Positions 34,177 through 58,226 of a stretch of DNA of 64,000 nucleotides are shown here, piece by piece. The notes beneath the pieces were generated by a model that saw nothing but the letters and a program-made list of their open reading frames with translations, had not been told where the DNA came from and made no database searches. Positions within the stretch are counted from its first letter, which is position 1, and every line of letters begins with the position of its first letter. Source of the stretch: Rhodothermales bacterium (GTDB lineage Bacteria > Bacteroidota > Rhodothermia > Rhodothermales > JANQRZ01); NCBI GenBank assembly GCA_028284265.1, contig JANQRZ010000013.1, positions 62,001-126,000 on the forward strand, read 5' to 3'. The position numbers were made by a program, and so were the translations under genes.

Positions 34177-35550
34177 ATGGCGAAACCCAAGACCATCTTT
34201 ACCTGCCAGAGCTGCGGCCACGTCGCGCACCGCTGGATGGGCAAATGCCCCGAGTGCGAGGACTGGAACTCGTTCGTCGAGGAGACCGAACGCTCATCGG
34301 TCAAAGCCCCCGTCATGCAGATCGTCCCGACGTTCGGGCGAGGCACCACCGGATCGAAAGCGCAGCGGATCACCGAGGTCGAGGTCGCCGAACAGCCGCG
34401 CTTGGTGACAGGGCTGAGTGAGTTCGACCGGGTGATGGGCGGCGGCATCATGATCGGCAGCCTCACGCTCGTCGCGGGCGACCCTGGCATCGGGAAGTCG
34501 ACGCTGATGACGGAGCTGGGGCGATTTCTTCCAGCGCATACGGTGCTCTACGTCACGGGTGAGGAGTCGGCGCGGCAGGTCAAGCTCCGCGCCCAGCGCC
34601 TCGGCGTCGACACGGGGGAGTTCTTTCTCCTCGCCGAGACCAACGTGGAAGAAATCGTGGCCGCCGTGCAGGACATCGGCCCCGACGTGCTGGTCATCGA
34701 CTCGATTCAGACGGTCTACCGGCCTGACCTGACGAGCGCGCCCGGCTCGGTCAGCCAGGTCCGTGAGTCGACCGCCGCGCTCCTCGCCCTCACCAAGCAG
34801 CTTGCGACGGCGACCTTCCTCGTCGGGCACGTCACGAAGGCAGGCAGCATTGCCGGGCCGCGTGTGCTGGAGCACATGGTCGATACGGTCATCTATTTCG
34901 AGGGCGACCGGCACCACGCCTACCGCATTCTCCGCACGGTCAAGAACCGCTTCGGTGCGTCGGGTGAGTTGGGTCTGTTCGAGATGCGCGAGAGCGGGCT
35001 GCGCGAGGTCGAGAACGCAAGCGAGATCTTTCTCTCGGAGCGACAGTACGGCGCGAGCGGCTCGGCCATCGTCTGCGCCGTCGAGGGGACGCGCCCGATC
35101 CTCGTCGAGATTCAGGCACTCGTCACGCCCGCGAGCTACGGTACCCCGCAGCGTACCGCGACGGGTTTCGACCCGAAGCGGCTCCAGATGCTCCTCGCCG
35201 TCCTCGAAAAGCGCGAGGGGATGCGGCTCTCGCAGCAGGATGTGTTTCTCAACGTCGCGGGCGGCGTCCGATTGGAGGAGCCTGCCGTGGACCTCGGCGT
35301 GGCGCTCGCCGTGGCGTCGTCCTTCCGCGACGTGCCCGCCGACAGCGGGACGGTCGTGATCGGTGAAGTCGGTCTCGGCGGCGAGGTGCGGGCCGTGAGT
35401 CGGATCGAGGCGCGGGCCGCCGAGGTCCACAAGCTCGGCTTCGAGCAGGTGCTCCTGCCCAAGTCGAACCGCAAGGGCGCAAGCTTCCCCGAAGGGCTGA
35501 AGGTGCAGGCCGTTGAGCGGCTAGGGCAAGCACTCGACGCCGTGCTCTGA
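34177..35550 (+). CDS. radA: DNA repair protein RadA
   Basis: A 457-residue RecA-like branch-migration protein. It has a zinc ribbon with Cys10, Cys13, Cys24 and Cys27, Walker A GDPGIGKST at 101-109, the RadA-specific KNRFG motif near 256 and a Lon-like C-terminal domain (DLGVALAVASSF, then VGEVGLGGEVRAVSRIEARAAE). It ends VQAVERLGQALDAVL-stop. The last 50 bases are duplicated at 37078-37127 with only third-position differences, so this 3' end was probably replaced or displaced by recombination. Confidence 0.96.
   Translation: MAKPKTIFTCQSCGHVAHRWMGKCPECEDWNSFVEETERSSVKAPVMQIVPTFGRGTTGSKAQRITEVEVAEQPRLVTGLSEFDRVMGGGIMIGSLTLVAGDPGIGKSTLMTELGRFLPAHTVLYVTGEESARQVKLRAQRLGVDTGEFFLLAETNVEEIVAAVQDIGPDVLVIDSIQTVYRPDLTSAPGSVSQVRESTAALLALTKQLATATFLVGHVTKAGSIAGPRVLEHMVDTVIYFEGDRHHAYRILRTVKNRFGASGELGLFEMRESGLREVENASEIFLSERQYGASGSAIVCAVEGTRPILVEIQALVTPASYGTPQRTATGFDPKRLQMLLAVLEKREGMRLSQQDVFLNVAGGVRLEEPAVDLGVALAVASSFRDVPADSGTVVIGEVGLGGEVRAVSRIEARAAEVHKLGFEQVLLPKSNRKGASFPEGLKVQAVERLGQALDAVL
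35501..35550 (+). repeat. Left copy of duplicated radA 3' end
   Basis: 50 bp forming the present radA tail. It matches 37078-37127 at 44 of 50 positions. All six differences are in third codon positions, five of them keeping the same amino acid and the sixth changing TGA to TAA. The two copies bracket the leucine-rich-repeat gene as direct repeats. Confidence 0.85.
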
Positions 35551-35677
35551 AGAGCGGAGGTATCGCGAAGTGCCCTGAGACAGAAATGGGGCCCTCGTAG
35601 CTTGGTCTTCAACAAGCGTCGTTATTAGATGTTTGAGATACCTGACGCCATCGTTCCCCTCGAACTACGGTAGTACA

Positions 35678-37051
35678 ATGCGCCTCTCTTCAAAGGACTC
35701 GCGCCGCTTGCTCTTGCTCAGTCTTTTCGTCGTCGGTACGGCTGTGTTAGCCCACGCTCAGATCTGCGTCGGTGATGTTGAACTCAAGACACAAGAGGAG
35801 GTAGCTGCCTTCAACTGTAGTGAAGTGATGGGCAATTTGCTCATCGGCGATTATGACAACGAGGACGATGTCAGGGACCTGACCCCTCTCTTAGAGCTTA
35901 CTTCTATCGGCGGCTACCTCAGTATCGGAGGCAGTGCTGTACTAAAGTCGCTAGACGGGCTTAATAATGTCTCCACTGTCGGCGGCAATCTCACTTTCAA
36001 TTATAACCCTTCGCTCGAATCCCTTGATGCTTTAGAAAGCCTCACCTCCGTCGGCGGACTCTATATCCAAAGAAACGATGCACTAGATTCTCTTGTAGGC
36101 TTGGAGGGAGTCACCTCTGTTGATGTCAGCATTCTCATTCGGGACAACGCTGTGCTGGAATCGCTAGCTGGTCTCGACAGTGTATCCTCTATCGGTAACT
36201 ACCTCCTTATTGATGACAATGTCGCACTGAGATCCATGGCGGGCTTAGAGAACCTCGCTTCCGTAGGAAATTTTGTCCGCATTGTAGGGAATACCTCGCT
36301 GGAGTCGCTGACAAGTTTAGAGAGGCTCGCATCCGTTGAGGGTGGTCTCATCATCGAGAGCAATGACGCGCTGGTATCGCTGTCGGGCTTAGAGGGTCTT
36401 GCCTCCATCGGCGGCCGAATGTCTGTCCGCGATAACGCCACGCTAGAGTCGCTGTCAGGTTTGGAGAGCATTACCTCTGTTGGTGCCCGGCTTGGCATTC
36501 ATAGAAATGCCACTTTGAGGTCACTAGCAGGCTTGGAGAACCTCACTTTCGTAGGTGGCGACCTCAGCGTCTCCCTCAACACCGCGTTACGAGACTGCGC
36601 CTGCGGTCTCTCAGGTCTCATCTCGGACCAGCCTCCTGTCTTTTCCGGCGTTAAAGGTTCTGTCTCGATCAGTGACAATGATTCTAGCGGGGTGTGCAAC
36701 TCGCCGCAAGACGTTTTGGAGGCCTTTGCGTTGTGTAAATCGGTGGCGAGTGAGCCCTCTGGGGCTGACCCTCCGGCAGACCCGTTGCAACATCTCACAC
36801 TCGACACGGGCTATCCTAACCCGTTTGCCGAGGTAACGACAGTGGCGTTCACGCTGCCCAATTTAGCAAGGGTGCGTCTGGCAGTCTTCGACGCCCTCGG
36901 ACGCGAAGTGGCTGTACTCCTTGAGGAGCCTGTGAGAGCGGGTCAGCACGCGGTGAGGTTTGATGCCGGGAGGATGGCGAGCGGAACGTATGTAGTCCGG
37001 CTCGTGGTAGGGAAAGAAGCGTGGACGCAGCGTCTCACGCTTGTGAGGTAG
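35678..37051 (+). CDS. Leucine-rich-repeat surface protein with T9SS sorting domain (low GC)
   Basis: A 457-residue secreted protein. The signal peptide LLLLSLFVVGTAVLAHAQ is followed by receptor-L/LRR-like repeats of about 24 residues (patterns such as LESLAGLDSVSSIGNYLLI and LESLTSLERLASVEGGLII) over roughly 75-310. A cysteine-bearing cap (DCACGLSGL) follows, then a C-terminal T9SS domain beginning GYPNPF and ending LTLVR. Such proteins are exported by the T9SS to the cell surface. The gene is clearly AT-richer than its surroundings and sits between two copies of the radA 3' end, which suggests horizontal insertion. Confidence 0.85.
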   Translation: MRLSSKDSRRLLLLSLFVVGTAVLAHAQICVGDVELKTQEEVAAFNCSEVMGNLLIGDYDNEDDVRDLTPLLELTSIGGYLSIGGSAVLKSLDGLNNVSTVGGNLTFNYNPSLESLDALESLTSVGGLYIQRNDALDSLVGLEGVTSVDVSILIRDNAVLESLAGLDSVSSIGNYLLIDDNVALRSMAGLENLASVGNFVRIVGNTSLESLTSLERLASVEGGLIIESNDALVSLSGLEGLASIGGRMSVRDNATLESLSGLESITSVGARLGIHRNATLRSLAGLENLTFVGGDLSVSLNTALRDCACGLSGLISDQPPVFSGVKGSVSISDNDSSGVCNSPQDVLEAFALCKSVASEPSGADPPADPLQHLTLDTGYPNPFAEVTTVAFTLPNLARVRLAVFDALGREVAVLLEEPVRAGQHAVRFDAGRMASGTYVVRLVVGKEAWTQRLTLVR

Positions 37052-37077
37052 GATTTGTAGGGGGTACTTGCAGTGAG

Positions 37078-37127
37078 AGGTGCAGGCCGTCGAGCGGCTC
37101 GGGCAGGCGCTCGACGCGGTGCTCTAA
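37078..37127 (+). repeat. Right copy of duplicated radA 3' end
   Basis: It encodes VQAVERLGQALDAVL followed by TAA, in the same orientation as radA but without any upstream radA sequence. The synonymous GC-ending codons (GTC, CTC, CAG, GCG) look more native than the left copy. It may be the original radA end left behind after insertion of the 1.5-kb block. Confidence 0.8.
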
Positions 37128-37261
37128 AACGCCAAGCCGGGGTGAGGTTATCTTTTCAGCCGGTTGTCATCAGAGGACGACCGGCTCGCCACACAATAAC
37201 CCCGGAGCGGCTGCCGTTACCCGAGCGTGCACCGCACAGCCTAGCCGCTAGCCTACGCCGC

Positions 37262-37852
37262 ATGGAGCACCTGCCCGACGAAGACCTCGTCGCAGCCTAC
37301 ATCGATCACGGCGATGAGCGCGCCTTCCGCACGCTCGTCGAACGTCACCAAGAGCGCATCTTCGGCTACTTGGTGGGGATGATCCGCGACCGCGAGGTGG
37401 CGAGCGATCTCTTTCAGGAGACGTTCCTCCGCGCCATCGCGGCAATGCAGAAGCGACGTGGGTCCTACGAAAAGCAGGGCCGCTGGCTGGGCTGGGTGAT
37501 GCGCATCGCCCGCAACGCCGCCCTCGATCATATCCGCAGCCGCAAGAAGTGGCAGGATGTGGACTCGGGCGACGACGAGGGCACTTCGTTCTTTGATCGG
37601 CTTCCCGCTGAAGGCCCTGATGCCGTGGAGACGCTCGACCTTGCCGGTCGCGTCGAAGAGCTTCGGGCAGCCATCGAGTTGCTCCCGCCGGAGCAGCGCG
37701 AGGTCGTCCTGCTCCGCCATGAGTCGGAGTTGACCTTCCGCGAGATCGCCGAGATCACCGACGTTTCGATCAACACCGCACTGGGGCGGATGCGCTACGC
37801 GCTCATCAACCTCCGCAAGACACTCATCCCCGACGCAGCCCGCAACACCTGA
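37262..37852 (+). CDS. ECF-type RNA polymerase sigma factor
   Basis: A 196-residue sigma-70 family protein. Region 2 contains AFRTLVERHQERIFGYLVGMIRDREVASDLFQETFLRA, and region 4 contains LPPEQREVVLLRHESELTFREIAEITDVSINTALGRMRYAL. There is no region 1.1 or 3, as in ECF factors. ATG 37262 is used; an upstream in-frame reading passes through the duplicated radA tail and is not credible. It is followed by the repeat-bearing membrane protein that probably acts as its anti-sigma factor. Confidence 0.92.
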   Translation: MEHLPDEDLVAAYIDHGDERAFRTLVERHQERIFGYLVGMIRDREVASDLFQETFLRAIAAMQKRRGSYEKQGRWLGWVMRIARNAALDHIRSRKKWQDVDSGDDEGTSFFDRLPAEGPDAVETLDLAGRVEELRAAIELLPPEQREVVLLRHESELTFREIAEITDVSINTALGRMRYALINLRKTLIPDAARNT

Positions 37853-37889: not shown

Positions 37890-39080
37890 ATGCACGACGA
37901 GTTGAACGCCATCCGGCGCGTCTACGGCGAGCTTGGTTCCGAGGAGATGTTCCTCGATGCCAGTGCTGAGGCCGAAGCCGCGTCGCTGGCTGAGATGAAG
38001 ACCGCCCTCGATGCGCTTCCACCGCAGCGCCCGGAGGCGAGTGTGCTCAACGCGGTGATGGCTGCTGCCGGAGCCGTTGCGCTCGGACCAATCCGCACGG
38101 TCTACGAGGAGGAGTCGGTGGACCTCGCTACGCCGGAGGCGAAAGCTGAAGCCGCTGCTTTGGCTGAGATCAAGGCAGGACTCGACGCGCTGCCGCCGCA
38201 GCGCCCCGATGCCAGTGTGGTGAACGCCGTGGTAGCCGCAGCCGGAGCCGCCGCGCTTGGTCCTATACGCACGGTTTACGGGGAAGAGGCGGCTGCCCTC
38301 GCCACGCCTGAGGCGGAAGCAGAGGCCGCTGCCCTCGCCGAGGTGAAAGCGGGCCTTGATGCCTTGCCGCCGCAGCGCCCCGCCCCTGCGCTTATTGATG
38401 CGGTCGTCGCCAGCGCGACTCCGTCGCGCACGCCCCGCGCGGTGCCCGTTGCGGCCACTGCCGGGCGTGCTGCTGACCGCCCGGCTCGTCGTGGTGTGCG
38501 TCGCGGTGCCGCCGTCGCGCTCAGTGCTGCATTCGCGCTCGTGCTTGCCCTCAGCATTGGGCTGTGGCCCGACGGCGAGTCGCCAGGACAAGAGGTTGTC
38601 ATTCCGCAGGCAGACGGCCTCGCCGAAGCTCCGGTGCTGGAAGACCAAGAGGCTGCGTCGGCTGATGACGCTTTCGCCGACGCCGCCCCTGTTGAGCCCC
38701 CGGCTCCCGTTTTGACTGAGCAGATCGCCGCAGCGCCGCCGCCGAGTGTGGCGCGCGCACGGCAAGAGGCCCCCGTGGCCTCCGCGCCTGCTCCGGGCGC
38801 TGGGTTCAGCGCCGTCGCCGAGCGTCGTTTCGCCGACGCCGTACCTGCTGAGGCAGAAGCCGATCTCCTCGGTGTCTTCGATGCGACGGATGATCTCGCG
38901 GAAGCCCTGCCGCTCGCCGATGGCGACGAAGAACTCCGCGTGCTCTACCTCCGCCTGCAAGAGATGCAGGCAGCCCAGGTCGGTGTCGAGTGGGGTGGTG
39001 CGCCCGTCTCGCTCGGGGCCGCGCCGGACTCGACGCCTGCCGCCCGCTCTGGCTGGATGCAGGTGCGCGTCGAACGATAG
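37890..39080 (+). CDS. Membrane protein with three tandem ~59-residue repeats, candidate anti-sigma factor
   Basis: A 396-residue protein. Three near-identical units start at about residues 10, 69 and 127, each with RTVYGEE-like, EAEAAALAEVKAGLDALPPQRP and VNAVVAAAGAAALGPI elements. A basic linker precedes a single membrane helix (VALSAAFALVLALSIGLW, about 208-226). The rest is a Pro/Ala-rich periplasmic part. Position after an ECF sigma gene and the cytosol-helix-periplasm topology suggest an anti-sigma factor, but no zinc-binding ZAS motif is visible. Role inferred. Confidence 0.6.
   Translation: MHDELNAIRRVYGELGSEEMFLDASAEAEAASLAEMKTALDALPPQRPEASVLNAVMAAAGAVALGPIRTVYEEESVDLATPEAKAEAAALAEIKAGLDALPPQRPDASVVNAVVAAAGAAALGPIRTVYGEEAAALATPEAEAEAAALAEVKAGLDALPPQRPAPALIDAVVASATPSRTPRAVPVAATAGRAADRPARRGVRRGAAVALSAAFALVLALSIGLWPDGESPGQEVVIPQADGLAEAPVLEDQEAASADDAFADAAPVEPPAPVLTEQIAAAPPPSVARARQEAPVASAPAPGAGFSAVAERRFADAVPAEAEADLLGVFDATDDLAEALPLADGDEELRVLYLRLQEMQAAQVGVEWGGAPVSLGAAPDSTPAARSGWMQVRVER
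37920..38424 (+). repeat. In-frame triplicated coding repeat
   Basis: Three successive ~174-180 bp units within the candidate anti-sigma gene, beginning near 37920, 38100 and 38274. The second and third units are the most alike, pointing to recent expansion. Confidence 0.75.
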
Positions 39081-52814: not shown

Positions 52815-52871
52815 GGGCGTGCGATTGGCGTCGCGCTTTCCACAGCACCCGCGCCGCCGAGTTCCTTCATC

Positions 52872-55800
52872 TCATCGCACGAGGGTGACGCGCTGAGTGA
52901 AGACATGGTCCGCCGCCACCAGCCGGACCAGGTACATGCCACTCGCCAGTCCCGCGCCGTCGAGTGAGGCCGTATGTCGGCCTGCCTCCATCTCGTCGTC
53001 GGCGAGGACTGCTACCGTCCGGCCCAGCAGGTCGTAGGCCGTCAGACGAACAGGTGCCGCCTCGGGCAGGTCGTAGCGGAGCGTTGCTTCGCGGACGAAC
53101 GGATTGGGGTAGGCTGCATGCAGAGCAAACCGCTCCGGCAATGCCGCCACCGTTCGGGCCTTTGTCTCAATCGCGGCCTTGGCGATGTCCGATGCCGGGC
53201 TGGTGCCCCAGCCGTTCGCCTCCGTCACGGTCCACGTATCGCCTCCGAGCGGCTCGTCGTCGCGGAGCGCTTCGGGCACGCGCAGCGGAGCCACCGTCAC
53301 GGTGAGCGCAAACGGCTGTTGGTCAGTCGTCACGCTGGGGAATTGCCCCACCCTCAGCGTGTAGGTGTACGTCCCTGCCGGTGCCGTTCCCGGCACGGGC
53401 TGTACGAAGCTCCCCGTCACCGTCGTCCCCCCGGGCAGCGTTCCGGTGCGAATCATGCCCGATAGGCCGCCCGGACTCGCCGTGAAGAAGAGGTCGCCCG
53501 AAGCCGCGCTCCCGGTGTTGTTGCGGATCGCGTAGTCGAACGCGACCGATCCGCCGGGAGCAACGGCCAGCGGTGTCGTGCTGACAGCCTGAAGGTCGAA
53601 GCTGGGGCGGGCGGTCACGGTGACGACGACGCTCGCAGCGTTGTACGCGACGGCGTAGGTGTAGCCGTTCGGGGCTTCGACCATGGCGAAGGTGCCGGTG
53701 ATACCACCCGTCGCAGTGAGGACCGTGAAGCTGTCGCCGATCTGCGGGAAGAAGCCGAGGCGGTGCCGCAGCCGAAGTGTACCGCCGAGCGCGACGTTCC
53801 CAGCCACCGCGAGTTGGTCGTGCTCGGTGCCGGGCGCGAGGCCACCGAGGTCGAGGTCGAGCGAGGCGGAGGCGGTGGGGGCGAAGTCGCCGGTCCAGTT
53901 GAGGGTGCCGATGGCACCGGTCGAGTCGCCGGGGCTGACGGTGCCGGTCAGGGTGACGGTGGCGTTGGTGAGGTCGAGGGAGCCATCGCCGCCGAGGAGT
54001 CCGGGTCCGTCGAGGGTGTTGCGGACGATGAGGGTGCCGTCCTCGACCCGGACGGCTCCGACGTTGGTGATCGGGACGAAGACGATGCTTGTCCCGCCCT
54101 CCGTCTTGCTGAGATGCCCGCCGGCCTCAACGACGACACCGCCCTCGTCGGAGGTCGCTCGTGCGAGGGGACGGCGGGCCGAGCGGTCGTGCGCCTCCAG
54201 AGCTTTTGGACTCGCTCGATCCTCCACCGCACGCTGGTCGCCCGTCGCACGAGCGACGGCAACAAAGATGTCGTTGAAGTTCAGGAGATCCGTGCTGCCG
54301 CCATCGCCGATGGTGAAGGTGGCGTCGGCACCAAGGCCGATGTCAGTGTTGAAGGTGCTCGGGCCGCCGATGGTCGCATCTTCCTCAACCATGAAGTCTG
54401 CAGGTCCATTGGCGACGACGCCCGCTTGGTAGATGGCCGGAGCGAGGTTCTGGCCGCTGTTGTAAATGAAGAGGTCGTTGTAGCTGACCGCGCTGCTCGG
54501 CTGGATGGTTCCGCCATCGAGCGTGGTCTTGAGGTCGGTGGCGAGGTCGGAGAAACGAACGGATCCGAAGGGTCCGATGCGGAGAGTCGCGTCGTCCTGC
54601 GGCGTATCGGTGTTTGGTGTCGTGCTGAAGTCGACATCTGAGGGTACGCTGGAGCTGCCCTGCACGTTGAGGAGCGCGTTGTCTCCGGCGACGAGTTGCC
54701 GCTCGCCGCCCTGGAAGGTGCCACCTGCGAATAGGTTGGTCGTACTGTTGTCTCCGAGCACAAGCGTTCCGTTGTCGACTCCGACGCGCTTGGCTGTCAG
54801 CGGAACGCGGAAGTCTACATTGATGCCGTCCCTGACGTTGATGCGTCCATTCTCGGGGATGATTGCATTGCCGGGTTGCTCGAAGGCTGGAGAGCCAATG
54901 TCGAGGAAAGAATCGTTGATGTCGAAGTCGAAGAACCGGAGGTTGGCGTCTGCCGCAATGTTGAACGCCGTGATCGTCGAGGTCGGGTCCACGCCGCCAC
55001 CGAGGACGTCAGTGGTACCGCTTCGGAACGTGAGGTCAGCCGCATTGAAATCAGGGCTGCTCCGTAGCACCTCGATGAAGAGGTCCGGCACGTTGGGGTC
55101 GGGTGCCACGTTGCCGCCGTTGATCTCGGCCCCGCGGTTGACGGGCTCGACTGTGGGCAGCAGCACAGTGGTGCCGGAAGAGTTCGTGATGCGGGCGTTC
55201 TGGCCGTCCGGCCGGAGCGTGAATCTATCCTCGAAGTCTCCACGGAAGATTTGGAAGTCCCCGCTGATATCGACAGCGCCATCGCCGTTCCAGTCCCCTT
55301 CCGCCCAGGTCGTAGCATTGGGGTTGGAGAGGTCGAGCGCGGCGAAGTCCGCGAAGGTGAGGGTACCATCGAGATTGCTGTCACCTGTAAGGTTGAGTGT
55401 ATTCCCCGCCATGATATCGAGATCGCCTTCATTGTCAAAGCGTGTCTCGACGGTGACATTGTTTATCACCGTCATGGTGCCGGATGTGCCGTTGGTAAGA
55501 TTCCCGCTCACGGCGTCGTCGTTCCGCACATTAGCGTTCAGCGAAAGGTCGTCGTTGTTGACGACCGTGACGCCTTCTCCCAGGTTCGTGTTGGCGTTGA
55601 TATCGGTTGGTCCATCAAGGTTGACCACGAAGGCCCCGGTGCTCGGGTCGTTGTTGCGCAGCGTCGTCCCTGCATCGACCGTGGTATACCCTATCAGGGT
55701 GAGATCATCGTCGCCGGAACCAGTGGAGGTCACGGGGTTGGTCATGTTGACATCAATCGTAACGAGGTTGCCCGTGCCGTTGGCCTCCCAGATACTGGCG

Positions 55801-57932: not shown

Positions 57933-58046
57933 GGAAGGAGGCGTCGATGCGGTACAAGTGACGGTGTGTAGTATCATGGCAGTAGGTTGCTAATTATAAG
58001 GATCATGTGTCATGATACTTGTCGAGCTTCACTATTGCCGGATACC

Positions 58047-58226
58047 TCATCGCACGAGGGTGACGCGCCGGGTGAAGACACGGTCCGTCGCCACCAGCCG
58101 GACCAGGTACACGCCACTCGCCAGTCCCGCGCCACCAAGCGAAGCCGTATGTCGGCCTGTCTCTACCTCCTCGTCGGCGAGGACCGCTACCGTCCGGCCC
58201 AGGAGGAGGGCAATAGCGGTACGCAT
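58047..58226 (-). pseudogene. Remnant joining a signal-peptide-like start to a T9SS sorting tail
   Basis: A 59-codon remnant MRTAIALLLGRTVAVLADEE... ending RRVTLVR-stop. From LLGRT onward it matches the end of the giant gene (about 156 bp, roughly 90% identical to 52872-53030). The preceding MRTAIALLL resembles a signal-peptide start, so the whole middle of a T9SS protein seems deleted. It lies immediately upstream of the giant gene in the same orientation, as a direct repeat of its sorting domain. Confidence 0.65.

Follow-up and report, generated by a model that had tools for sequence, protein, structure and literature searches.

The window, by which we mean the whole stretch of 64,000 nucleotides that was analysed, contains an intact radA gene that is separated from its usual right-hand neighbour, an ECF sigma factor gene, by an insert carrying one gene and bracketed by two copies of the radA 3′ end. 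The genome under study is designated G000, its only same-genus relative G001 and its only same-family relative G002. The features of the locus are as follows.

34177–35550, plus strand: radA (Sms), 457 aa, intact and ending in the upstream tail copy (TIGR00416, 607 bits; 97% identical to that of G001)
35501–35551, plus strand: upstream tail copy, the working radA 3′ end, which probably arrived with the insert (88% identical to the downstream copy over 51 nt)
35501–35513, plus strand: 13-bp tract that is the same in both copies (base 14 is the first mismatch)
35678–37051, plus strand: cargo gene for a secreted leucine-rich-repeat (LRR; Receptor L-like) protein with a T9SS sorting domain (PF01030, 7e-17; TIGR04183, 9e-8)
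37078–37128, plus strand: downstream tail copy, apparently the stranded native radA 3′ end, with 15 codons and TAA (it abuts the native sigma leader and is nearer to the G001 tail)
37158–37186, plus strand: terminator-like hairpin, presumed to be the original radA terminator (stem of 11 pairs, MFE z = -2.6)
37192–37261, plus strand: conserved ECF sigma leader (ACAATAACCCCGG...), common to G001 and G002 by alignment
37262–37852, plus strand: ECF sigma factor, the ancestral right-hand neighbour of radA (TIGR02937, 4e-26; adjacent to radA across the order)

The gene that follows the sigma factor (37890–39080) contains three tandem repeats of 58 aa (174 nt) with 72–78% identity, and has no match in Pfam or NCBIfam.

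The cargo gene and its composition

In agreement with the first-pass annotation, the tail copies enclose a single LRR gene of low GC content. Translation probably begins at the ATG at 35678; the resulting 457-aa protein has a signal-like N-terminus and contains both a Receptor L domain and a T9SS type A sorting domain. The GC content of the insert is 0.545 compared to 0.641 for the window, and the GC3 of the LRR coding sequence is 0.60 compared to 0.87 for radA. A foreign origin cannot be read from these values and was rejected as an explanation for them, because other LRR genes of the same family are similarly low in GC (0.55–0.58; C23a in G000, C54 in G001 and C5 in G002).

Genes of this LRR family are gained and lost between housekeeping genes. 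One LRR/T9SS gene is located behind ribF in G001 (C54, L188) and another in G002 (C5, L178), while in the genome under study ribF (C17, L187) is followed directly by rpsO and pnp, with no LRR gene. We considered whether the cargo had moved from the ribF–rpsO junction; this is unsupported, as the radA-linked protein groups apart from the ribF-linked ones in a tree that is itself weak.

Two copies of the radA 3′ end

The repeat finder gave a direct repeat of 51 nt between 35501–35551 and 37078–37128, matching at 45 of 51 positions (88%). This bears out the earlier report of a match of 44/50, which is what is found in the slightly shorter frame of 35501–35550 and 37078–37127. Comparison of the 64-kb window with itself by BLAST gave E = 5e-11 for the tail repeat, which is one of only three direct repeats in the window at E ≤ 1e-3. 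The expectation for a 44/50 match within the gap by chance is about 4e-16. The upstream copy consists of the final 15 codons and stop codon of radA. It had been considered that the downstream copy might be part of a conserved gene, which would speak against an insertion; it sits in no gene.

There are no differences between the copies at the 30 first and second codon positions, and five at the 15 third positions. All five are synonymous, and VQAVERLGQALDAVL is kept in both tails, as had been claimed. The sixth difference changes the middle base of the stop codon (TGA/TAA), and the statement that every difference is at a third position therefore holds for the five sense differences and not for the sixth.

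The junction was compared in relatives using one genome per species. Across the order radA is often found directly before the same ECF sigma gene, and among the 22 relatives with both genes placed side by side, the gap is 60–164 bp in 10. The junction is ancestral, and is short in many relatives. When position 35500 is joined to 37078, radA is complete and lies 134 bp from the sigma gene, so that the native spacing is restored. The native junction follows in G000 in the order downstream tail, terminator-like hairpin and sigma leader. The leader is shared with G001 and, nearer the gene, with G002, and its homology between G000 and G001 starts about 6 nt past the stop position.

It had been suggested that relatives should show either an empty site with one tail, or other cargo between two tails. 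The first of these is found in G002, where the junction is 588 bp long, with one radA tail and no obvious gene. The second is found only in part: the junction in G001 (C12:60419–65637) is 5.2 kb long and does contain other cargo, namely a histidine (sensor) kinase and a peptidyl-arginine-deiminase-like gene, but has a single radA tail. The contents of the junction thus differ among G000, G001 and G002, and it follows that different inserts were taken up in different lineages.

Of the two copies, the downstream one has the appearance of the original, native radA tail, and the upstream one probably came with the insert. The downstream copy has four sense differences from the radA tail of G001 and the upstream copy has eight. 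Judged against G001 and G002, the upstream copy has the derived state at four of the five sense differences, and the fifth is ambiguous. The GC3 of the upstream tail is 0.73 compared to 0.88 in the body of radA, which is no more than suggestive in a tail of 15 codons. The divergence of radA from that of G001, which is a different species, shows no clear step along the gene. Between G001 and G002, too, divergence is faster over the last ~32 codons (counted by eye) than in the gene body, so that an excess in this region would not single out a foreign tail.

The window has one more stranded gene tail, on the minus strand: the orphan sequence at 58046–58206 is 90% identical over 161 nt to the T9SS sorting-domain tail at 52871–53031. 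It lies just upstream of the large gene to which that tail belongs (start about 57932, stop about 52877).

Proposed displacement of the tail by recombination

The pattern of differences is best read as that of two alleles, which diverged while both were coding and were later brought together, because drift at every position would be expected in a non-coding copy that a local duplication had left behind. Both tails have a proline-to-alanine change that is absent from G001 and G002, which suggests that the donor would be closer than G001.

Our best reading of the locus is a single event of tail-displacing recombination, of a known kind and seen once, with a clear and well preserved scar. The ancestor would have had radA, its stop codon and about 134 bp before the sigma gene. 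A fragment from a related lineage, carrying the radA end of that lineage with an LRR/T9SS gene behind it, would have recombined at the end of radA, such that radA gained the donor tail and the LRR gene entered behind it. The 47-nt tail and stop of the recipient would then have been shifted downstream, to stay there as a fossil. The most likely process would be one-sided homologous recombination, with the radA homology as anchor and an illegitimate join on the right side (homology-facilitated illegitimate recombination), and the survivor would be a cell in which radA was still intact. Should the junction be the product of a crossover inside the repeat, the exchange on the left probably took place in the 13-bp tract at 35501–35513. 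ComEC is present in the genome, which on its own is no proof of natural competence. We give this account as a whole, including a donor from a related lineage and one-sided recombination at the radA end, about an even chance of being correct. Its core had been proposed in the first-pass annotation, namely insertion at the end of radA with the gene restored by a different tail allele and the old tail left downstream, and this core agrees with the short ancestral junction, with the downstream copy joining the sigma leader, and with the synonymous-only differences.

Displacement is recognised by a new 3′ end on a conserved gene with the old 3′ end downstream, and this is what is found here, in both the polarity of the copies and the native junction. 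The account is supported by the description of the same left-behind 3′ parts in rhs and type VI secretion (T6SS) loci. In rhs loci, displacement of the C-terminal tip leaves old 3′ parts behind (Jackson et al. 2009, PMC2935791); there too the incoming segment gives a conserved gene a new 3′ end, and the old end becomes an orphan fragment downstream. However, the new C-terminus alters the Rhs protein and the events recur in arrays, whereas the RadA protein is unchanged, the payload is an extra gene, and one event is seen. In T6SS clusters, effector and immunity genes are displaced by homology-facilitated illegitimate recombination (PMC5361080), which similarly combines homology as an anchor at one side with an illegitimate join at the opposite side, and moves ancestral 3′ material downstream. 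The piece displaced at radA differs in being 15 codons and the stop of a housekeeping gene, for which no function is expected. There is also a likeness to minimal mobile elements, for which homology in the two flanks mediates exchange between strains (PMC3082526), in that differing whole-gene cassettes occupy the space between two conserved genes (an LRR gene in G000, a kinase gene and a deiminase-like gene in G001, and none that is obvious in G002). At radA this likeness rests on comparing species rather than strains, and one flank is duplicated.

Alternative explanations

The insert may instead be the remnant of a site-specifically integrated element (CIME-like, with attL and attR), in which the att site mimics the radA 3′ end, the integrase acted in trans or has since been lost, and the LRR gene alone remains. 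This is a fair rival, because gene 3′ ends are common targets for integration with restoration of the gene: PAISt in Streptomyces integrates at the bacA 3′ end, and islands related to it have lost integrase and sites by erosion (PMC4057263). The radA locus resembles such elements in having a gene 3′ end as target, direct repeats bracketing the insert and an intact gene, and the first 13 bp of the repeat, identical in both copies, could represent a crossover core. It differs from them in having no recombinase, no second occurrence, a cargo of a single gene and an imperfect repeat. There is no integrase in the insert, as the first-pass annotation had noted, or near it, and the four PF00589 matches in the genome are all on other contigs. 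By inspection, none was seen among the main ORFs of the radA–sigma gaps of G001 and a further genome, G031. Nor does the attachment site appear to have been reused, since the suggested search for other genes between duplicated radA ends, which covered about 0.55 Mb downstream of 147 radA loci, gave no second tail. No mimic of the radA tail was found in viral contigs by exact degenerate pattern, and the insert has no match in phage and plasmid records; a mobile-element origin of the insert was rejected on these grounds. A site-specific remnant is possible, if unlikely.

A tyrosine recombinase is encoded near a contig end (G000:C11:789–1304, L180), beside a tRNA-like sequence identified by eye, and is possibly one end of an integrated element.

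Alternatively, the radA tail could have been duplicated locally as the LRR gene inserted, by repair or template switching, with the copies diverging in place. The alanine codon common to both copies fits such an origin within the lineage. On the other hand, a local duplication predicts more changes in the non-coding copy, at all codon positions, whereas most of the sense differences arose in the coding copy, and of 48 sites in the non-coding copy no more than one or two have changed. With the slowest rate considered, that of the G000 branch as a whole, one change or fewer in 48 sites has a probability of P = 0.005, and other assumed rates bring this down to as little as 1e-7. We regard local duplication as decidedly improbable.

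The roles of the tails could also be reversed: in this mirror case the native one is upstream, and recombination on the right brought in the downstream one from a relative, together with a stretch of DNA on the sigma side. The downstream copy has G or C at every third position and is the nearer to G001, and the sigma gene is somewhat closer to that of G001 than radA is (third-position differences 29/194 and 122/442 respectively). The GC3 of the sigma gene (0.82) is however no higher than that of radA, so that the right side does not resemble an import from a GC-richer relative, and an extra step is needed to place the LRR gene. This arrangement is very unlikely.

The first-pass annotation also raised the idea of a small, undescribed type of cassette. 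This is unsupported: there is no other double radA tail among the 147 loci, no integrase nearby, a low GC content found in other LRR genes of the family, and no gene-tail repeat at the edges of LRR paralogues in G000, G001 and G002, around which the only repeats are LRR-internal ones, those in sorting domains or other coding sequence, and short matches due to chance. The idea that a small integrase-less surface-gene cassette, mobilised in trans, uses the 3′ end of radA for attachment and carries a synonymously recoded tail that keeps the target working, with this locus as the first example, can be given very little credence; it would, if true, be a small new integration system, and the surveys here argue against it. 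It is concluded that the locus is not evidence of a new kind of mobile element.

Returning to tail-displacing recombination, the locus would represent a case in which a housekeeping gene had a surface-protein gene added behind it, the likeliest source being an exchange with a related lineage. It would also indicate that a DNA-repair gene can undergo the displacement of gene tails that is best known from toxin loci.
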